64,000 nt of DNA from Capitulum mitella (lineage: Eukaryota; Arthropoda; Thecostraca; Pollicipedomorpha; Pollicipedidae): assembly GCA_030062745.1 (NCBI GenBank), contig CP099847.1, positions 27,638,923-27,702,922 of the forward strand. The letters run 5' to 3'. The stretch's first letter is position 1. Each line of letters begins with the position of its first letter. The translations under genes were made by a program, and so were the position numbers. The notes beneath the pieces were generated by a model. The model worked only from the letters and a program-made list of their open reading frames with translations, ran no database searches and was not told where the DNA came from. Below are positions 2,871 to 64,000 of this stretch, in pieces.

Positions 2871-5800
2871 TGCTCTGTTGGGCGGTGAAAGGCAGCGCGG
2901 ACATGGAGGGAGCACTTACTTGCCCCGCAAAAAACAGACAAAACTGCACGTCGACGCCAATGTGGCGGGTAGTACGGGGAAAAGTAGGAAGGTCACCGTC
3001 AAGGAGGTAGTGTGAGCCAATGGCGCCCCTGCGGCTACAGACAATCGGTTAAAAAGCTACAATTAAATCAGTGCGGCCAAGTTCATATGATGGAACGGCT
3101 TTTGATCGAATGCTCCTTGAGAATGTTAAGCTAAAACAATGAAAACGTTCGGTGTTGTAGATTAATAGTTGTGACGGCAATATGTCTTGTAGACGACTAT
3201 GTTATTACAGATCATCTAAAGTTCGCGCCGTAGCACAAACTCCATAGAAAGTGCCTATGCACGCTAAAGGATAATAACGCTTAACACCATCATGTGACCC
3301 CATTGGAAGAAACGTTCAGTTGGGGCACAAGTGTTCAATTGCTGCGATCCAAATGCAACGTATTACGTAAAATGATTGCTTTATCTCCACCTTTTGTTCC
3401 TCTTCCAATAAATTTCACAGTTCTTGTGCTGTGCTTTACTTTCTGTTTCAGCATTCCTGTGATCTGATTTCCCGAAACACGATAAAACTCTCAAAATCAG
3501 ATTAAGTTGCTGGCGTCATCCGCATCAACGTATTTCTCTGAAAACGTGGGTCCAGTTTTGCTGCAAACAAGGCATCTGAGAACTCGGACAAAGCCTTTCC
3601 TTATTCACGCAAGGACTGTAATATATCTTGGCGTCCCAGGTATGGTGGATCCCGGATGCATCCTCTGCTTTTGCTGAGCGACCATGTCCAGCCATAGAAC
3701 GGGGAAGGCGGGAAGACTGGGTGTCTGGGGATGGACTGGTCGCCATCCTTACCAAAGGAACAGGTCCATCGCTAAACGCAGACAAAAACGATGCGAAGGA
3801 CGTAGGAACAAAGAGCCGGTTGAGACATAAGAAATGAAGGGTGGACGACGAGCTGAGAATTCTTGCAAAATCACTTCTGTGTCCCCGCCGTCATACAGTC
3901 CAAACGGGTAAAAATTCGATGTTCAGTTGAAACCGTGACTCCGACGCGCTCGCTTTTTAAAAACAAATCCCTAACACGTGCCGTCGTGCCGTGTTGCTAT
4001 GCCGCTCAATACGTACGTCAACGGGCGTCCCAGACCATAAAACTGGTTGGTTTTTGGATGACGTCAGATTCGCAAACAATGATCCCATAAAAACTACTAC
4101 ACGTTTGGTATCAGTTGCCCAGCTTTCAGACAACAAAGATAAAACTGGTTACATGCTTCTTCATTTTGCCTTCTTCATTTGCATTCAGCTATCACTGGGA
4201 AAACGCGGTAATGCACTGGATCCGAGGGCGGGCAACACCACGTCACGTTACCGTGGCGTCGTCACACCACAAGTTACCGCGTTACGTGCGCCGGGGCGCC
4301 GGCCACCATACGTCGCGATTCGTCACGCACACCGCCGTCGTCACGACACATCGGTCGCCGTCGTCGAGACGGATCGGGCGCCGTCGTCACTGACACATGA
4401 CTGTTTCGTCACGTTGTTACTTCGTTCCCTGGGAGCCGATGTGTCACAAGGCCGAGAGCGGAGTAACGCTTGCCAAATGACAGCTCTGTCGCTTTCCTTT
4501 CTCCAGGGAATGTGTAACAGAGCTTCGGCACGGCGGGGCCGACTACGGCAGCCGTCTAGCACGATAATTCTGCACACAAGAAATACGACGGGAATGAAAA
4601 ATGAATGTGGTGATCACGCATCACGAAATGCATCGGTAATGTGCCGGTCACATTCAATTCACGGAATCGAGTTCTATGAAAATGCGCAGTTATTTACTCC
4701 TGCGACAGCCGTATTTTGAGATATTCATGTTTACGGCGCCCGAAAGGATGAATATGTACATTATGAAGTAAATTACGTGAAAGATGTTCGCATGCCGTAC
4801 TCTGAGCAAGTGTTAACTATGACAAACGAGTCGCTACGTAATAAAAGCCGCACTTTGTGCGAATGCGACAGTTCTCCGAACCGCTTTAGTGAGCACAACA
4901 ATGCCTTGTCTTGCTAAGTGTTTGCGTTATTACGGGCGGACCCTCGCTGATGACTCATCAAGATTTTCTTTGTTTGGAGGCCCGTGTGGCAATGCTGGCT
5001 GTGTGTTTAGCTCCTTCGCCATGACCCTCACCCCAGCCGTCATTTGCCATTCGACGTCGGAAAGGCGTTGTGGCACTTCGCCGGTGGCTTAAAACACCAA
5101 AGATGTATTCCGAGAGTAGCTTGGCAGGCTAGGTACCATGTCTGGGTACGCTGTACGCACCTACCTCCATGCCTGTGTGGACTTTCTGGCACTGATTACT
5201 AAGGGTTGATAGCCGCAGCCGAATGTATTCTCACAAAAAGACAACCGATGTGATGCCTCTAGATTTCGTTGCTGATACCGTGATGCGCCTTTGATCCCTA
5301 CCGCACGATCTGATCCGCCGGCGATTTGTTCCTGTTACCAGGCGGGGTCACGCGGGTCAAGCGCCCTCCGGAGAAGGCTAGACGTGCGTGAAAACAGACC
5401 CCGTCATCAATCTCGGCTGGGAGCGAACCCTAACTGACGCGGAAAATGGACGACCGACGGTCCGGGCCGTGATTTGAGACGTCTCCGACCGTTCGTCTGA
5501 TTTGAGGATCGCGTGGAGGTGCGGCTGGTGCTCGTTGCTTGTGCACCGTCACGGAGCATTTTGGTAACCTCAACGATGCAGCGAACAACAACTGCGAGCG
5601 GGCCGACGGCGCGACGGGGCCGTTACGGTAACCGTCACCTTGGTGTTCAAATAATTATCCAGCGTGATGCTTATCTAAAGTTCCTTGGGGTTCAATTGCC
5701 ATTAACTCTGAACCCGTTTCGACGCTAAAGGTACCTTCGGATGTTCCCAATAGATGACAGTGGCGACTTTAGGGTGACATTTACTTTCAATTAAGATGGA

Positions 5801-14871: not shown

Positions 14872-15135
14872 CAGGCACGTAGCAAGGATTTTTTTGGGGG
14901 GGGCAAATGTCGAATTTTGTCAGATGCCACTGGCATGTGACGAAATTTATGGGAAAAGGCAGCAATTTTACGCAACTTACCTCAATCTGACGCACAGGAA
15001 AACATATGTTTGCTTTTGCAACATATGTATGATCACTATTCCGTATTCGTGAGGAATCGCCATATATCTAGTGAGGACTGCTTGGCTCAGGGGGGGGGGG
15101 CATGGCCCCCATGCCCCCCGTTGGCAACGTCCGTA
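14872..15135 (+). mobile_element. hAT-like MITE family 1, copy A
   Basis: Begins CAGGCACGTAGC and ends with the inverse GGCAACGTCCGTA. It is flanked by an 8-bp near-duplication, GTTCACCA (14864-14871) and GTTAACCA (15136-15143), 7 of 8 identical. Length is about 264 bp. Shared internal blocks with the other copies are the poly-G near the left end, TGGCATGTGACGAAATTTAT, GCAACATATGTATGATCAC, ATTCCGTATTC, and TGCTTGGCTCAGGGG near the right end. No coding capacity. The 8-bp target duplication and CAGG ends fit hAT-type transposition. Confidence 0.88.
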
Positions 15136-46377: not shown

Positions 46378-46539
46378 CAGGGGCGGAGTCGGGATTTTCT
46401 TAAAGGGGGGGGGGGCGAAGCCAAGTATGAACTGAAATCATATGAAAACCGCCTTCCGGGAAGACGATGTGCAACGGTTTTCACAAAAATGAGGACCTTA
46501 GGGGGTGGGGCCCGGGCCTCCCCATTGGCTGCGTCCATG
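46378..46539 (+). mobile_element. hAT-like MITE family 2, copy A
   Basis: Starts CAGGGGCGGAGTCGGGATTTT and ends with the inverse GGCTGCGTCCATG. It is flanked by a perfect 8-bp target duplication GACATGGG (46370-46377 and 46540-46547). Length is 162 bp. The same element, inverted, lies at about 56863-57025. Internal matches include TTTTCTTAAAGGGG, TCATATG/TCATACG, GGGAAGACGA and GGTTTTCACAAAAA. Noncoding. The perfect duplication indicates that this copy is fairly young or well preserved. Confidence 0.92.
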
Positions 46540-51796: not shown

Positions 51797-51953
51797 CAGG
51801 CACGTAGCCAGGATTTCCCTGGGGGGGGGGGCAAACATCAGATTTATCATATGCGACTGGCATATAGCAAAATTAATAGAAAAAGGAACGATTTTATATA
51901 ATTTGCCTCATATTTACATACAGGAAAGCATCTAGCATACAATTCTTGCATTT

Positions 51954-52019
<66 letters not shown>

Positions 52020-52113
52020 CTATTCCGTACTGGTGCAAAATCGTCATAAATCTGGTATAGACCGCCTGGCTCGGGGGAGCATGGCCCCATGGCTCCCCTT
52101 GGCTACGTTCCTG
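51797..52113 (+). mobile_element. hAT-like MITE family 1, copy B, with internal (TA)n expansion
   Basis: Starts CAGGCACGTAGCCAGGATTT and ends GGCTACGTTCCTG, its inverse. The flanks CATAGATA (51789-51796) and CATATATG (52114-52121) agree at 6 of 8 bases. It is longer than the other copies because a TA microsatellite of about 58 bp has grown at 51957-52015. Shared blocks are poly-G after the left end, ACTGGCATATAGCAAAATTA, ATTCCGTACT and CGCCTGGCTCGGGGGA. Confidence 0.87.
51957..52015. repeat. (TA)n microsatellite inside MITE copy B
   Basis: About 29 TA units where the other family members have GCAACATATGTATG. Confidence 0.97.
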
Positions 52114-55252: not shown

Positions 55253-55362
55253 TTTGCAACATATATATGATCGCCATTCCATACTGGTGCAAAATCGCCA
55301 TATATCTAGTGTAGACTGCTTAGTTCAGAAGGGGGCATGGTCCCATTCCCCCCCTACGAGTT
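55253..55362 (+). mobile_element. hAT-like MITE family 1, right-end fragment
   Basis: Matches the right third of copies A, B and C: TTGCAACATATATATGATC, CCATTCCATACTGGTGCAAAA, CGCCATATATCTAGTGTAGA, then a G run and a C run. The left two thirds are absent and no target duplication can be assigned. Confidence 0.8.
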
Positions 55363-56179
55363 AATCCAAGTTAACGTTATGGGAATATATCTGAGAATAT
55401 AACTGTATTTCAGTATTTAAACGTACTTTAAGTTGTGGGTGCCCAAGTCGCATTGTGGGTGCCCATTTCCACTTTGTGGATACCGGGGCACCCACAAAGA
55501 GATGGGAAACCACACAACTGGGTCCACTGGAAGTGGGCCGACCCCAAAAACACTTTTCTGAGAAACAATCAGCAAAGTTGTTTTCCCTTTATCTTAGCCT
55601 TCTAATGAGAGAGCTTCATGACCATTTTTTTCAAAAAGCCAAAAAGTGATGAAACACAAGGGGTCAGAGGTGGCGTTTTGATAAAAACGCGATATCTTTG
55701 TCATATATTGCACACTTGCCCAGAACGAGAAGACTTTCCATCATGTCGGTGAACATGCGACACTTTCGCCTTCATTTGTGCTTGTAAAGACAACTTGTAA
55801 AGATTTGAAATGTAAAATTTGGTGCGTGGGTCACGAGTCAGTGCGGGTCAAAGTGATGACCGTCAAAACGTTGGCGCCTGGGGAAGCCTTTGTTTGAAGC
55901 TTCGCCCAGACTTTGTTTTTCTTTGTGTTGTGGAGGACGTCGTTATGTGTGTGCAGTGATGTTGTTTGTGTTATGATGGGACGCTGAACTCGTCTGTGGG
56001 GATAACAAGAACATAATTTTTAAATCCAAAGAACAGAAACAGTCATTCATGGGCAGTTCCAGGTCAGCTGATGTCATTAACCTTAGTGGTCTGAAGACAT
56101 ATATGATATGTCAATTGTCTTTTATTGCTATAATCCGAAATCGTGTCCTTAAAGTATTTAAATCATTTACGAAAAAATA

Positions 56180-57100
56180 ATCTGACCGCATCAAGCAATG
56201 AATACTGCACCACATCGCTTGATATAAGCCACGGCATTGGGTCCATCACCTCAAAGTAGTGACCTCTTAGACAGCGGCGGATGCACTTTCCTGTAATATT
56301 CTATGGATTGCATGAGATCCTTCATCTCTCCGTCATCTCTCACAACATCCAAACAGTTTTCCATGAACTTGACGGACCTCTCGGCCGGATCGTTCACACT
56401 CTTCACGCTAGAAGCAAAGCTCTTCATCTCGCGTAAGAGCTATTGGTCTCCCAATCTTCGGGGTCTGTGCAGAGCCACTGTTCATCAGCATCTAGTACGT
56501 GGAAGATGCTCCATTACTGAGGTACTTTCAACCCTCGGAGTGTCGTTTCTTCTTCCAGCTCCCGGAAAGCCGGTATTCCCATCTCAAACAAAGCAGGGTG
56601 GTAAATGCCGCACAGCTTTTGGACCATGAGGACCTTTTCCTCATGTGATACACGATCACTGAAGCGAGATAAATGTACAACATCCGCCAGGAACCAGAGA
56701 TGCTACTGCTACAGAGCTTGCTGGGCTGTTGCAGCAATGCCAGCATCCCTGGGTGCCAGTGCTTGATGCAGAGTTTGATGTAGCTGGAGGTTCTTCAGTG
56801 GCGCGTCTGCAGTGCAATAACCCACCTGAAGACAATACTGCGCATAAATCAGAGCTGCGAACACAGGCGCAGCCAAAGAGGAGCCCAGGGGGCCCTGCCC
56901 CCCCGGCCCGCATTTTTTGTGAAAACCATTGCAAGTCGTCTTCCCAGCAGGCGATTTCCGTATGATTCCGTTTTCCACTGAGTTCCGCCCCATCCCCTTT
57001 AAGAAAATCCTGGCTGCGCCCTTGGCTGCGAACCTGCACAACGCTTGCAATTTCTCCATAATGTCATCATCGTATCCCATCTGGGCACACACTGATGCAA
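56180..57100 (-). pseudogene. Transposon-type protein remnant, left palindrome arm, split by a MITE
   Basis: Minus-strand counterpart of the remnant at 57170-57870, with the same DVVHLSRFSDRVSHEEK and FEMGIPAFREL segments. It keeps a stretch missing or altered in the right arm (about 56430-56520, reading VLDADEQWLCTDPEDWE). The 163-bp family-2 MITE at 56863-57025 interrupts it. Frameshifts and stops show that it is dead. Product and transposon class are unknown. Confidence 0.5.
56863..57025 (-). mobile_element. hAT-like MITE family 2, copy B, inside the left palindrome arm
   Basis: Inverse of the element at 46378-46539: begins ACAGGCGCAGCC on the plus strand and ends AATCCTGGCTGCGCCCTTGG. 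CTGCGAAC flanks it at 56855-56862 and 57026-57033. The right palindrome arm has the uninterrupted sequence at the matching place (rc of about 57210-57230: CAGAGCTGCGAATCTGCAG), an empty site that confirms both the element boundaries and the duplication. Confidence 0.9.
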
Positions 57101-57137
57101 TCTACCGCTCATGATGATTCGCTCTCAGATTTGCTTT

Positions 57138-57166
57138 ATGCCTTGAAGCGACTGGCTTCAAGGCAT
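57138..57166. repeat. Perfect central hairpin of the 3-kb palindrome
   Basis: A 12-bp stem around a 5-nt loop (57150-57154) marks the symmetry centre of the large inverted duplication. Confidence 0.95.
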
Positions 57167-57169
57167 AGA

Positions 57170-57870
57170 GTACGCGGATGCGATGTTGACACGATGGGGA
57201 AATTGCAAACGTTCTGCAGATTCGCAGCTCTGATTTACTCACCGTATTGGCTTCAGGTAGGTTATTGCACTGCAGGCGCGCCACTGCAAGACCCCCAGCT
57301 GCGTCAAACTCCGCATCAGGCACTGGCATCCAGAGATTCTGACATCACAGAAGAAGCCCATCAAGCTCTGTAGCAGTAGCATCTCTGGTTCCTGGCGGAT
57401 GTTGTACATTTATCTCGCTTCAGTGATCGTGTATCACATGAGGAAAAGGTCCTCATGGTCCAAAAGCTGTGCGGCATTTACCACCCTGCTTTGTTTGAGA
57501 TGGGAATACCGGCTTTCCGGGAGCTGGAAGAAGAAACGACACTCCGAGGGTTGAAAGTACCTCAGTAGTGGAGCATCTTCCACGTATTAGATGTTCCGAA
57601 GAGTAGCAGACCAACAGCTCTTACGCGAGATGAAGAGCTTTGCTTTTAACGAAAAGAGTGTGAACGGTGCAACTGAGAGGTCCATCAAGCTCATGGAAAA
57701 CTGGATGTAGCGAGAGGTGACGGAAAGATGCGGGATCTCATGCAATCCATAGAGTACCACAGCTAAGTGCATCCGCGACTATCTAAGAAGCCATTGCCGA
57801 AAGGTGATGGGACCCATTGCCGTAGGTTATTTCAAGCCATGTGATGCAGTATTTTTTGTCTGATGCATGA
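57170..57870 (+). pseudogene. Transposon-type protein remnant, right palindrome arm
   Basis: The conceptual plus-strand reading, in several frames with stops, gives FLADVVHLSRFSDRVSHEEK, then ALFEMGIPAFRELEEETTLR, and further on GATERSIKLMENWM. The last resembles the ND-x-AER-x-IKLI stretch of an uncharacterised protein family common in invertebrate repetitive DNA. I know that family only by this motif and cannot assign a transposase class. At least three stops or frame changes make it non-functional. The left arm carries the same segment on the minus strand, and pieces of each arm fill gaps in the other. Confidence 0.5.
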
Positions 57871-58180
57871 TATCGAATATGCGGCAGATGTTCGTAAATG
57901 ACGTAATTATTTTAAGCACGTAATTTCCGGTTATAGCAATAAAAAACAACTGACGTATGATATATGTCCTCAGGCTACTACGGTCAGTGACATCAGCTGG
58001 CCTGGACTAGCCATGAATGACCGTTTCTCTCCTTGGATCTAAAACTGTGTTATTGTTATCCCTACAGACGAATTCAGCGTACTTCTTGCCCCCTAATACA
58101 AAGAAAAACAAAATCTGTACGACAGCTTCCCCAGGTCACCTTTTCTGAGGTCATCACTTTGGCTCGCGTTGACCAGTGAC

Positions 58181-58447
58181 CAGGCAAGAGGTTTTATAGG
58201 AGGGGGGGACAAACGTAATTTTTTTTTTCATATGCCGTTGGCATATGACAAAATTTATAGGGAAAAGCGGCATTTTTATGTAATTTTCCTCGTGTTTAAC
58301 GCATAGGAAAACATATCATGTTTGCTTTCGCAACATACGTATGATCACAGTGACGTATTCCTGCGAAATCGCTATATGTCCAGTGTAGACCGCTTGGCTC
58401 AGGGAGTGGGCATAACCACTATGTCCTCCCCCTTTGCTACTTCCCTG
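58181..58447 (+). mobile_element. hAT-like MITE family 1, copy C, inside the right palindrome arm
   Basis: Starts CAGGCAAG and ends CTTCCCTG. It is flanked by a perfect 8-bp target duplication CCAGTGAC (58173-58180 and 58448-58455). It shares TTGGCATATGACAAAATTTA, GGAAAACATAT, GCAACATACGTATGATCAC and CGCTTGGCTCAGGGA with copies A and B. The left palindrome arm has the matching empty site near 55830-55845, where the flanks on the two sides of this MITE are contiguous. Confidence 0.93.
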
Positions 58448-58594
58448 CCAGTGACACACACATCAAATTTTAGATTTCAAGATGCCTTTACAAGTACAAA
58501 TGAAGACGAAAGTGCCGTGTGTTTATCGAACTGATGGAAGGCCTCTACTTTCCGGGAAGTAGTGCAATATATGCCAAAAATGTCGTATTTCTTG

Positions 58595-58735
58595 TCAAAA
58601 ACGTGCCTTCAGCCTCCTCTGTTTTCGATTAATTTTTGACTTTTGGAAGGCGATAATCAACTTCAGGCTCATATAACGGAAAACGTGGCCTTCAACTTGC
58701 TCTGTTTTCGACTAATTTTTTACTTTTGATATATA
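58595..58735. repeat. Two-copy tandem repeat, ~82-bp period
   Basis: AACGTGCCTTCAGCCTCCTC at about 58600 and AACGTGGCCTTCAACTTGCTC at about 58682, each followed by TGTTTTCGANTAATTTTT and ACTTTTG. Confidence 0.85.
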
Positions 58736-60109: not shown

Positions 60110-61957
60110 TTAGCATTGACTGTGCATTGTCACTATGGTCATTTTATGTTGATGTCATTGAATCATACATCTCTGCCAGCCTGCTGTTTAACTCACTTTA
60201 TAATGTAATCTCACATTTTACAGCCAGATTAGGATTCTTTTTTTGTGCCTGATCTCAGAGTGTTATTGGCACTATTTTCTCCATTAGTAACCAAGCACAC
60301 TGGATGACACATATACGGGGCTGGAAAAGATAGTTGCAAGAAACAACACATTATGACTGGAGGCCTGGATCTAACCTATCCTAACCACTGTAAGTGAATA
60401 GTAGGCCCTGTGTATGTTGTGTTTACAGTTTGTATGTAGTGTCATCCCTATATTCTTTGTATGATATTTTTGTCTTATCTACACTAGGAAGATTTCTCCC
60501 AATTTTGGTGGGATTTCACTGTTTGCTTTTGCAGCTCATTTTATTGGAATATGCATTTTGTAAATGTGCCTTAAATTTGTCTGCCTGAAATTGGCAAGCA
60601 AACCTTTTAATTAAGAAATTATTTCATGATAGGACAATGTATTTATGAAATCCATGTTGTGTTCTTAAGTAATGCACCATCATGGGTATATATGTTTTAA
60701 CTTGTTTTAATATCCTTTCTAAAATTGATTTTAGTCCCCAATATAGGCAAATTTTTTCAGCTTTGATTTTATTGCACATATTTTATTTATTACCAGCTGT
60801 CTATTACATTGTCTTTTCCATGCCATCTATAAATTGTCTGTCATTTTTCTTCATGCACCATCCAACAAAAGCATTATGGCTAAAAATACTGAGAAGTGCT
60901 AAGATGCATTATAGATTGGAATGTATGATGGCATTGATGTGTCATATGCAACCAAAAGCTGCATTGGTGATATTGATGAAGTGCATTGGTAAGTGATTTT
61001 GACATGCCTTTTGTCTTCAGTCCTGAGTCTGATGTGAACCAAAACTCCCAAGTTCCGTCTTTGGAGCATTCGAAACATTTGGAGCAGTTACTCAACTGTT
61101 AACTATTAACATTTATGTACCCATCCTCCTTCAGATATGCAAAGCAATTTCTCCTTAAAGCAACACAAAAACCTGTGAGATACAGATAATTGTGTATGAT
61201 AAATGTTGTTTTATTACCTGCCACAAGCAGAGTACATTTCTTGGTCCACTATTGTTTGACATACTGAAATTTTCATGAAATAAGAATAATGTATATTGCC
61301 ATCAAAGAATGTAACTCTCCCTACTTTTTTAGTTGAAATTAGTGAAGGTAAAAGGTGCAACTACCAGTGGTGTACTCATTTGTTCATTCACTTACATTGT
61401 ACCAAAAATGGGGGGGGGGTGTTGTGTACATGTATTTCAAGTTTGGGGATGGGAAAACTGCCTCATACAGCAGTTTTGAAAAACAACATGTATGTTATTT
61501 AGTAGGCTTTGCAATTTCTTGTCCAGGAAACCAGTAACTGTGACATATACCACTGAGTTAACTGCTGTGAGAAATGGGAAACAAAATCCAGCTGTTGGTT
61601 TTGAATTAGTGACAATAATCCAGATCTAAAAACATCTCTATTTTCAGGTCCAGGAGAGTAAAGAAATTGCTTTAGCAGAGATGAGGTGTGCTGTGGTGCA
61701 AACAGAACAGAACCTATTTATCCTGTGTACAAGAACATTGGTTCTCATACTTTCAGTTTCTTCGTCCTCATGTAAATGAGAGGTTTGATTGAGAAACATT
61801 TGCACATTGCCTGCAATATCTGCTCTTTCCATGACAATGATGATAGGTTTTGGTTGTCTGGCAACTCACAACACTGACGTGGACAATTGATGCCCACCGC
61901 ACTACTCTGCTCCTGCGAGTTACACGTGATTAGTTGTGATATCCCTCTCATCAGACG
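60110..61957 (+). other. Probable 5'-UTR intron of ZNF277: AT-rich, CpG-depleted
   Basis: By eye there are only about four CpG dinucleotides between 60110 and 61860, against dozens per few hundred bases in most flanking DNA, and TG/CA is common. The change on the left is abrupt near 60.1 kb. In arthropods, germline methylation is typically confined to transcribed bodies of housekeeping genes and erodes CpG there. Together with the acceptor at 61982 this supports an intron with the promoter at or upstream of about 60.1 kb. A short degenerate repeat copy lies at 60289-60410. No exon was recognised within. Confidence 0.55.
60289..60410 (+). mobile_element. Degenerate second copy of the CCTAA fold-back element
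   Basis: It shares ACCAAGCACACTGGATGACA with the left arm at 401-542, then ATACGG, a shortened middle, AACAACA and CATTATG, followed by CTAACCTATCCTAACC and GAATAGTAGG, the start of the right arm. It lies inside the CpG-poor presumed intron of ZNF277. Its right arm is cut short and its pentamer tract is reduced to about two imperfect units. Confidence 0.7.
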
Positions 61958-61982
61958 TCCTTTGTCGTGTTTCTGCCTGCAG
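61958..61982 (+). promoter_or_regulatory. Splice acceptor of the ZNF277 5'-UTR intron
   Basis: A pyrimidine-rich stretch (gtcctttgtcgtgtttctgc) runs directly into CAG at 61980-61982, eleven bases before the ZNF277 ATG. The upstream 1.9 kb is AT-rich, CpG-poor and without credible coding sequence, as expected of an intron. The matching donor is not certain. Consensus-like donors lie at about 59839 (GTGAGT), 60389 (GTAAGT) and 60991 (GTAAGT). Confidence 0.6.
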
Positions 61983-61992
61983 CCGGTCGCCG

Positions 61993-63295
61993 ATGGCGTC
62001 CGACGGCCTGGTGGACCAGCGGTTCGACAGCGGCGGCGGCGTGCCGTCGCTGTCGTTCCCGTCGCCGGAGGAGGACGCGCCGGCGGCACCGACCGCCGTG
62101 CCCTGTCTCTGCTGCGAGGAGCGGTTCGAGCCGCCGCTGGCGCGCGACGAGCTGGCGCGCCACCTGCTGGCCGAGCACCGGCTGGTGGTGGCCGACCTGG
62201 GCCTGGTCGCCGAGCTGGCCGAGTACTGCGCCTACTGGGCGCCCCGGCTGGCCGCCGCTGGACTGGCCGAGTACTGCTTCACTGTGGTGACCAACACGGG
62301 CCCGGCCGACACCGCGCCGTCCGAGGAGTACTTCCTGCTGTCGCCGAAGCTGGACGAGGACCGGCAGCTGCGCGAGCGGCTGCAGCGCCGCCGGCTGGAG
62401 CGCGTGCTGGCGCGCCAGGCCGAGGAGCGCGCGATGCGCGAGTTCCGCCGCGGCTGCCTCTTCTGCCGGCAGGAGTACGTGGGCCGGCTGGCGGGCTTCT
62501 TCGACCACCTGGCCGCCGAGCACAACTTCAGCGTGGGCCGGCCCGACAACATCGTGTTCGGGCCCGAGTTCCTGGACGCGATCGAGGCCAAGCTGGAGGC
62601 GCTGCGGTGCCTCTTCTGCGACGGCGTCTTCAAGGACCGCGCCACGCTCAAGGAGCACATGCGCAAGAAGCAGCACAAGAAGATCAACCCGAGCAACACC
62701 GGAGTTCGACAAGTTCTACGTCATCAACTACCTCGAGTTCGGCAAGGGCTGGATGGAGCTGCAGCAGGAGCCCGAGGAGACGCCACCGACCGGCTTCGAC
62801 GAGAGCCCGTCGGACGACGAGTGGGCCGACTGGCAGGAGCCGGCCGCCGCCGGCGCCGTCTGCCTCTTCTGCGAGTTCTCCACGGCCGACGTCGACGCTC
62901 TGCCGGCGCACATGGCCGCCGAGCACGGCTTCGACTTCGCCGAGCTCAAGACGCGCCTGCGGCTCTCGTTCTACCAGCAGGTGAAGCTGGTCAACTTCGT
63001 GCGGCGCCGCATGGTCGAGCGCGCCTGCCTTGTCTGCGACGAGACCTTTCCGACGCGCGACCGGCAGATGGCGCACATGCGGGACGGCGGCCACCTGCGC
63101 GCGCCGGCGGCCGCCGTCTGGGACCAGCCGCAGTACTTTTTCCCGACGTACGAGAACGACCAGCTGCTGTACCAGCTGGAGGAGGCGGACGGCGCCGCCG
63201 ACGAGGTGCCCGTCTACCCGGAGGACCCGGTGGACGTGGCCGACTCGATCTTGGCCAGCAGCGAAGTCAGGGAGGAGCTCGGCGGGCAGCGGTGA
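61993..63295 (+). CDS. ZNF277: ZNF277-like C2H2 zinc-finger protein, single coding exon, one-base frameshift at ~62701
   Basis: Recognised by its whole architecture: five C2H2 fingers at the spacing of animal ZNF277, the segment FYQQVKLVNFVRRR (about residues 326-339) and the C-terminal PTYENDQLL. Reading through the break gives about 433 residues, close to the ~450 of vertebrate ZNF277. Zinc ligands as I count them are C38/C41/H57/H62, C155/C158/H172/H177, C206/C209/H222/H228, C290/C293/H306/H311 and C345/C348/H361/H367. The ATG at 61993 has a usable context (ccgATGg) and lies 11 bases after a splice acceptor. Family knowledge: ZNF277 is a nuclear/cytoplasmic zinc-finger protein linked to ribosomal protein uS5 (RPS2) and, in mouse, to Polycomb-type repression; no catalytic role is known. 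Codons are strongly GC-ending. Oddities: there is no intron in the coding part, although the vertebrate gene has many, and one extra G at about 62701 moves the frame after INPSNT before EFDKFYVINYLE. Identity is near certain; whether the break is real is not. Confidence 0.94.
62698..62706 (+). other. ZNF277: Frame break inside ZNF277 (one extra G)
   Basis: The codon for T236 ends at 62700 and the conserved continuation EFDKFYVINY starts at 62702, so 62701 is one base too many. There is no room or GT-AG signal for an intron. The first frame stays open to 63309 after the break but becomes an Arg/Gly/Ala-rich string unlike any zinc finger. The second frame carries fingers 4 and 5 and stops at 63293-63295. 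A sequencing or assembly indel is the simplest reading; a real null allele is the alternative. Confidence 0.85.
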
Positions 63296-64000
63296 CCGGC
63301 GCTGTGTGACGTGGCGCCGTCCGGACGGGGGGGGGGCGAAGATGCCGAGTGATCGCCCGCCGGAGGGGGGAGAGCGGGTTACATCGACTCATGTGATAAC
63401 TCACCGTCTTGCATGCTGTGGCTTTGTGTGTTTTGACGCTGGGTCCGCCGAGCAAGATCATATAGAATATCGGTCGCTGGTATCACTTTACTGTTTTGTG
63501 CGGCCATTAGCCGTGTTCCGAAGCTGGAGGTGTGATGCCGCAGTCGCGGTTATTTCTCGCATGTCGCCAGCGCTGACAGTAACGTCTCTACGGTCCGGCC
63601 AGTCTGCAGAGACGTATCTTTTTGTCTGACTTGTGGACTGTACAGCCATGTCAGAATCGTCGATTTTCTGTGGTTGACGTAATCCTTCCATTTGCAGTGA
63701 GACTGTGTTGTGCGAGCTGCATTAATCGACGAATGATGCGCACCAGTGATGGATTTTTTTCGTCTCAGAGCGTTTGTACGTGTAATGACAGGTGGGATTT
63801 CTGGCGTATGTAATACATGCTTTTTTGTAAAGCCGGTCAGTAAACCCAGTCAATACTGAAAGCAATGCTGGACTGCTTGAAGCGTTTCATTCACATGAAC
63901 AAATTTCAAATACTTGTGCGTTGGTTTTGACACTGATCACAGCATATAAAAAATAATTTTGGATAATCTCAGTAGTCGGAAAATATGTATTCGTTTTTCG
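63296..64000 (+). other. ZNF277 3' UTR and downstream flank
   Basis: The sequence after the TGA contains no further coding signal. An AGTAAA hexamer at 63839-63844 is a plausible variant poly(A) signal and a T-rich stretch precedes it; a second A/T-rich candidate lies near 63945-63960. CpG frequency returns to the higher background immediately after the stop codon. Confidence 0.45.

Follow-up and report, generated by a model that had tools for sequence, protein, structure and literature searches.

A probable family of palindromic, double-3'-ended DNA transposon derivatives in the genome of Capitulum mitella

Among described transposons, the closest in kind to the element analysed here are Foldback elements, especially copies of Galileo whose terminal repeats have absorbed transposase sequence. 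In Drosophila willistoni, Galileo is described as a Foldback-like member of the P superfamily in which the end of the transposase frame has come to lie in both terminal repeats, with copies 145 and 147 the ones compared here (PMC4168063), and Tetris is described as a Foldback element with modular repeats (PMC4079207). Work on other elements suggests that having two identical ends can either favour or prevent movement: for Mos1, a 26-fold gain in transposition efficiency in vitro is reported when both ends are of the preferred type (PMC4505599), whereas for piggyBat with two like ends the report gives no detected activity (PMC11707139). Here, we describe a diverged palindrome in a 64,000-nucleotide stretch of the Capitulum mitella genome (the window; G000:C9:27638923-27702922 in a 477-Mb assembly of 16 contigs), the window copy being referred to as W. 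Our reading, to which we give a probability of about 0.82, is that W is an inactive member of a family of palindromic, non-autonomous DNA transposons that carry the same 3' end twice, and that its arms have decayed and been partly converted.

The window palindrome and its relatives in the genome

The palindrome occupies window positions 55534-58698 and comprises the following parts.

55534-57149, minus strand: left (A) arm, an inverted transposon 3' end, in which a C-terminal transposase-like relic reads outward and is followed by the 3' untranslated region (UTR)
56517-56702, minus strand: C-terminal transposase-like gene relic of the left arm, a stop-free stretch of 62 amino acids identical to the right-arm copy
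57150-57154: loop of 5 nt between the stem halves 57140-57149 and 57155-57164
57155-58698, plus strand: right (B) arm, which repeats the 3' end found in the left arm and likewise reads outward
57380-57565, plus strand: C-terminal transposase-like gene relic of the right arm, a stop-free stretch of 62 amino acids identical to the left-arm copy

Both the large diverged palindrome and the 5-nt loop had been read from the DNA in an initial annotation, and both were borne out. When window 55575-57149 was compared with the reverse complement of 57155-58698 by an aligner in which gaps are cheap, 1037 of 1189 ungapped columns were identical, and in the family alignment the arms of W were 81.1% identical over 1239 shared columns. 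BLASTN gave a minus-strand match across the central 0.9 kb (55981-56861 / 58080-57221) with E = 0, so the pairing of the arms is not a product of chance. The outer terminus of the left arm, placed by eye, is TGGGCCGACCCC at about 55534, and that of the right arm is eroded and adjoins a (CA)n(TA)n microsatellite. BLASTN also showed one 48-bp direct repeat at the right outer end (58598-58645 / 58680-58728).

When part of the left arm was used to search its own genome at the DNA level, 16 matches were obtained, and four other loci carried left-arm sequence as a plus-strand copy followed by a minus-strand copy. Self-alignment of fetched DNA identified sister palindromes of the same subfamily (family 1) at L009 (C3), L010 (C5), L011 (C11), and L012 (C6), and truncated family-1 palindromes at L013 (C7) and L014 (C15). 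The centre of the palindrome can be aligned in all seven family-1 loci, the window included, with L013 contributing the A side and the loop only. This common centre consists of an asymmetric loop of about 40 nt and a stem of about 24 bp. In W, one stem half is mostly missing and a short inverted copy has arisen on the opposite side, leaving the 5-nt loop. By comparison with the sisters, this loop is derived and secondary rather than the original join, a point that the initial annotation does not make.

When the longest open stretch of L009 was used as a peptide query, 151 matches were obtained from 465 candidates, 150 of which were scored, and the resulting counts are lower bounds. The 150 listed matches fall into at least 125 loci, at least 17 of them with matches on both strands, and in 17 of these 17 the matches are divergent. 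From fetched pairs, palindromes of a second subfamily were identified at L025-L030, L032-L034, L036, and L040 (an arm of L030 is truncated), and those of a third at L031 and L035; L041 was not counted, as its inverted repeat lies mostly outside the family-2 stretch. By self-alignment, palindromes are present at 18 loci including the window, with 5 belonging to family 1, 11 to family 2, and 2 to family 3. The 17 beyond W, 13 of which lie in subfamilies 2 and 3, have their gene relics facing outward. With family 2 as a DNA query, 54 matches were obtained, distributed over 23 loci, and all 15 loci that were matched on both strands showed palindromic order. Single-arm copies, which the initial annotation had proposed to look for in the genome, were found at L037 and L042, and L038 and L039 are without a palindrome of this kind.

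Three further observations concern individual loci. L031 (C2) and L035 (C13) are 95% identical over 3.8 kb, flanks included, and are probably one duplicated segment (a segmental duplication between chromosomes) or part of a larger repeat. The same 1.2-kb sequence, unrelated to the arms and 81% identical between its copies, is present at about 4526-5746 of L014, within the family-1 arm, and at 396-1618 of L039, within a long non-palindromic relative. At L026, a tandem array with a unit of about 66 bp (3465-4001) lies beside the right end of the family-2 palindrome.

Parent element, movement, and later changes in the arms

Young, non-palindromic relatives are present at L022 (2645-6170; C8), L023 (C13), and L024 (C9). 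These 3.5-kb copies are 99.6-99.7% identical, and each has imperfect terminal repeats and an intact frame of 747 amino acids. An 8-bp duplication, ATATACAG, lies on both sides of L022; L023 sits in (TA)n, and two of the three copies sit in such microsatellites. Their family, the copies of which occur singly among the matches listed in the peptide search, has probably been active recently. L039 and the adjoining L044 form another relative without a palindrome, long and broken, that matches the 747-amino acid protein from residue 235 on and has 250-bp terminal repeats.

In a protein comparison, the arms of families 1 and 2 map to residues about 507 to 746 of the 747-amino acid protein and read outward. 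The tblastn matches to this protein start at residue 507 or later in the compared palindromes of these two families, and at 514 in L036. Because of this placement, each arm represents the 3' part of the transposon, and the palindrome has a 3' end on either side. Each arm retains about 700 bp of coding relic, and the palindromes compared have no complete transposase of their own, as is the case for Foldback elements.

The open reading frame (ORF) of 747 codons matched 0 Pfam families at E up to 5, P-type profiles included, and 0 NCBIfam families at E up to 1. Neither this ORF nor pieces of the arm peptides had a credible match among PDB sequences (best E 0.93), the pieces had none in Pfam, and a search of IMG/VR with two arm peptides yielded no relative. 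A known transposase or virus protein as a name for the ORF was dropped for want of a credible Pfam, NCBIfam, or PDB match. Elements of the hAT superfamily have short terminal inverted repeats that begin (C/T)A(G/A)NG. The TAGGG end of the young element fits this pattern, and the palindrome ends TAGAC and CAGGC fit it in part. The 8-bp target-site duplication (TSD) and the TAGGG end, which are general traits of that superfamily, tentatively place the element as hAT-like.

The flanks of the palindromes bear on how they came to their present sites. Among the six with both ends located, the flanking 8-mers match at 8/8 positions in L027, 7/8 in L009 and in L026, and 6/8 in L029, and when flanks of different loci were paired as a control, the mean was 3.36/8 and 3 of 42 pairs reached 6 or more. 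With matching flanks in four of the six, the palindrome itself has moved, with 8-bp target duplications. Because the centre is shared and flanks match, we conclude that the palindrome was already present in the source of the family and was mobilised as a whole. Five palindromes in which both ends were located and both arms remain measure 2.36-2.73 kb, and L013, one arm of which is mostly deleted, measures 1.54 kb. Miniature inverted-repeat transposable elements (MITEs) are usually under about 0.8 kb, and the palindromes were ruled out as MITEs by their size of 2.36-2.73 kb. As in Foldback elements, most of their length consists of terminal inverted repeats.

The arms have not diverged evenly along their length. 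The two halves of W share a tract without differences; neither this tract nor the uneven identity of the arms is mentioned in the initial annotation.

56515-56720: probable conversion tract, left-arm copy; its 206 bp are 100% identical to 57362-57567 when the latter is reverse-complemented
57362-57567: probable conversion tract, right-arm copy, 206 bp

The 206 bp of perfect identity in W compare with about 77% elsewhere in its arms, and L009 has about 520 bp at 97.5%; both tracts lie over the coding relic and occupy overlapping portions of the arm. A tree of the 12 family-1 arms is star-like, and sibling arms pair in 4 of the 5 testable loci, yet their similarity is patchy and, outside the tracts, close to that between loci. 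When each pair of siblings was split into two rates, differences inside and outside the tract numbered 0/203 and 234/1036 in W, 13/522 and 208/754 in L009, and 7/161 and 125/630 in L010. The log-likelihood gains of the split were 46.9 (W), 83.2 (L009), 14.0 (L010), 10.8 (L011), and 8.9 (L012), compared with a median of 6.9, a 95% point of 14.6, and a maximum of 20.0 among 61 of 61 non-sibling pairs (66 of 66 family-1 pairs were used in all). The tracts of W and L009 are clear by this measure. For family 2, 8 of 9 sibling pairs and 128 of 144 other pairs had the 300 or more shared columns that were used. L025 (25/814 inside, 81/314 outside) lies beyond the maximum of the 128 non-sibling pairs (39.2), L034 lies above their 95% point (25.1) and below the maximum, and the other six tested pairs lie below both.

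The evidence for the W tract that is independent of how its borders were drawn comes from changes present in both arms and absent from the majority at other loci, which are found at 21 of 187 sites inside the tract and at 17 of 883 outside. The simplest reading of the tracts is that they probably arose by arm-to-arm gene conversion after insertion, and the 206-bp conversion in W is recent relative to the divergence of the arms (0/203 compared with 22.6%). The W tract is not GC-richer than other loci and thus gives no sign of GC-biased conversion.

Each arm of W has also received an unrelated MITE.

56862-57024: left-arm MITE, 163 bp, with ends CACAGGCGCAGCC / CAAGGGCGCAGCC
56854-56861 (outer) and 57025-57032 (inner): TSD of the left-arm MITE, GCTGCGAA, a perfect 8-bp repeat
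57221-57228: empty site of the left-arm MITE, TTCGCAGC, in the right arm
58181-58447: right-arm MITE, 267 bp, with ends CAGGCAAGAGG / CAGGGAAGTAG
58173-58180 (inner) and 58448-58455 (outer): TSD of the right-arm MITE, CCAGTGAC, a perfect 8-bp repeat
55830-55837: empty site of the right-arm MITE, GTCACGAG, in the left arm, matching at 6/8 positions

The initial annotation had recognised one MITE per arm, an 8-bp duplication around each, and the uninterrupted target in the opposite arm, and it was correct on each point. Its term "hAT-type" agrees with the 8-bp TSDs and the CA..GG ends and is to be read as a match to general traits of that superfamily. Among the fetched loci, no other palindrome arm contained a match to either MITE at E 1e-4, the matches lying outside arms only. 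Elsewhere in the window, further members of the two MITE families, diverged or fragmentary, are present at 14896-15132, 51821-51931, 52007-52113, 55253-55338, and 46378-46533. Long open frames on the plus strand at 61930-63309 resemble an animal zinc-finger protein, possibly one like ZNF277, as would suit an animal genome.

Proposed history and alternative explanations

These results are consistent with the following history. A source element would have lost its 5' part and kept the 3' part, namely the C-terminal transposase-like codons, the 3' UTR, and the 3' terminal repeat, and this part would have become fused head to head with an inverted copy of itself, leaving a loop of about 40 nt between the two. 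The simplest such join is one in which a broken strand folds back and primes its own second copy. With the 3' terminal repeat at both ends, the product could have been moved in trans by the transposase of full-length relatives, and copies would have reached several chromosomes, duplicating 8 bp of target sequence as they inserted. From then on, the two arms would have decayed independently and neutrally, except where one was recopied from the other. The order for W would thus be a palindrome in the source, spread, insertion, divergence of the arms, and then, in no particular order, the rearrangement of the centre to a 5-nt loop, the two MITE insertions, and the 206-bp conversion.

Several observations weigh against this account. 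The ends of the six palindromes used for the flank comparison were located by motif and by eye, the flanks are unmatched at L025 (4/8) and L013 (2/8), and those of W itself are unreadable, its right end being eroded beside the microsatellite. Eight of the 23 family-2 loci have matches on one strand only, and some of these were perhaps never palindromic. The 747-amino acid protein matches no transposase profile, so the superfamily is tentative. The tract of L010 is of marginal significance and none reaches significance in L011 or L012; of the 8 pairs tested in subfamily 2, L025 alone exceeds the control maximum. As the borders of the W tract were chosen from the data, the count of one-arm changes (0 inside, 176 outside) is partly so by construction.

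The codons of the arms bear on how often such palindromes were formed and were compared in 11 of 12 family-1 arms (L014_B was left out) and the 16 of 18 family-2 arms that exceed 800 bases; codon counts from protein-guided alignments were set aside for their bias, the ratio being 1.27 even within family 1. Divergence at codon positions 1, 2, and 3 was 0.194, 0.225, and 0.226 within family 1 and 0.186, 0.165, and 0.184 within family 2, so that no codon-position bias or purifying selection on the arms was seen within either family. Between the two families, a comparison of majority bases gave 62, 50, and 99 differences at codon positions 1, 2, and 3, respectively, out of 153 each (chi-square p about 2e-8). 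Because a third-position excess is present between families and absent within them, the ancestors of the two families seem to have diverged while coding, with decay of the palindromes afterwards. This excess is more in line with palindromes that originated separately in families 1 and 2, or else with a palindrome that was itself coding.

The junctions lend themselves to two interpretations. Alignment to the non-palindromic L039 shows an offset of 4-5 codons on either side between the junctions of family 1 and family 2, on which the two centres were rejected as the same junction, and the junction of family 3 differs from both. At somewhat less than even odds, the formation of palindromes may be a regular, recurrent route by which this transposon superfamily gives rise to non-autonomous derivatives. 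At least three subfamilies would then have arisen separately from coding elements, with junctions near codons 508/520 and 512/525 and, for family 3, at a site farther downstream; their two 3' ends would have aided their spread, the 3' end being the better transposase substrate, as the behaviour of Mos1 would allow. The other interpretation is a single palindrome followed by central deletions, and one deletion of about 27 nt could convert one family centre into the other. A protein tree (42 rows with 70 or more residues, L035 being left out as a near-copy of L031) groups L039 with family 2. In the approximately unbiased (AU) test, a tree with all palindromic rows in one clade was the higher-scoring one and was not rejected (p 0.652), which is compatible with a single origin.

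Of the explanations that depart from a double-3'-ended family formed from a 3' remnant, the one that fares best is still unlikely: the palindromes would be internal-deletion remnants of an autonomous, Foldback-like coding element whose terminal repeats had absorbed the C-terminal part. The D. willistoni Galileo copies with transposase 3' sequence in both terminal repeats offer a precedent (PMC4168063), and families 1 and 2 diverged under coding constraint, unlike a dead palindrome. The four long relatives (L022, L023, L024, and L039 with L044) have aligned terminal repeats of about 115-250 bp, however, and no inverted copy of the gene at the 5' end.

We consider it improbable that the identical tracts reflect selection for a hairpin RNA (a precursor of endogenous small interfering RNAs) or for a protein rather than conversion. 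A perfect stem of 206 bp would be a good Dicer substrate, and such selection would account for the overlap of the W and L009 tracts in one part of the arm over the coding relic. It does not account for arms that, outside the tracts, are about as different as the arms of separate loci, for L011 and L012 being without a significant tract, or for the lack of codon-position bias within families; the shared changes, moreover, are locus-specific, so the sequence is not conserved between loci.

The initial annotation's proposal of an inverted duplication of a transposon remnant at the window locus only has a very small chance of being right, since the clustering of sibling arms in 4 of 5 testable family-1 loci, which separate local duplications would give, is outweighed by sisters on other chromosomes that share the palindrome and the centre common to 7 family-1 loci, by the matching 8-bp flanks of four palindromes, by the outward order in all 17 two-strand loci among the matches listed, and by siblings that are patchy and at the between-locus level outside the tracts. 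The remainder of its order of events, comprising a transposon remnant, arm divergence, and two separate MITE insertions, is retained in the history given above.

Long palindromes are thought to be quickly lost, and here a single genome contains related palindromes at 18 loci, two of which are probably one duplicated segment, in varied states of decay. As sister loci serve as outgroups, the fate of each palindrome after insertion, including central rearrangement, arm decay, and conversion tracts, can be measured locus by locus. The family is a clear case of DNA transposon derivatives with the same end twice and bears on the rise of Foldback elements and MITEs.

Comparison with described elements

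A literature search on "palindromic transposon" and like phrases found a single use of one phrase, from which we claim no absence from print. Arms kept alike by arm-to-arm gene conversion are described for the inverted repeats of mammalian sex-chromosome palindromes (PMC8981503). In contrast to these, the arms described here are 1.2-1.6 kb transposon relics on many chromosomes, their likeness is limited to tracts, and the GC content of the W tract is not raised.

Tetris resembles the present family in its long terminal repeats (up to 1,735 bp) and in having, as far as its description goes, no transposase of its own, so that it is presumably mobilised in trans (PMC4079207). The present palindromes differ from it in being almost without a middle domain and in their repeats, one short direct repeat having been seen in W. 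Modular tandem repeats inside the terminal repeats are a trait of FB and Tetris and not of all Foldback elements.

The likeness to Galileo is closer. Copies 145 and 147 are described as non-autonomous, with long terminal inverted repeats and TSDs of 7-8 bp, and copy 147 has at least 545 bp of transposase 3' sequence in both repeats (PMC4168063). That copy has an 872-bp gap between its repeats and repeats that are 97.5% identical (PMC4168063), compared with about 40 nt between arms and strongly diverged copies here. Unlike Galileo, the present palindromes have two 3' ends, about 700 bp of coding relic in each arm, and no P-type profile match. What is distinctive relative to known Foldback elements is the combination of almost no middle, a 3' end that occurs twice with a coding relic in each arm, and conversion tracts.

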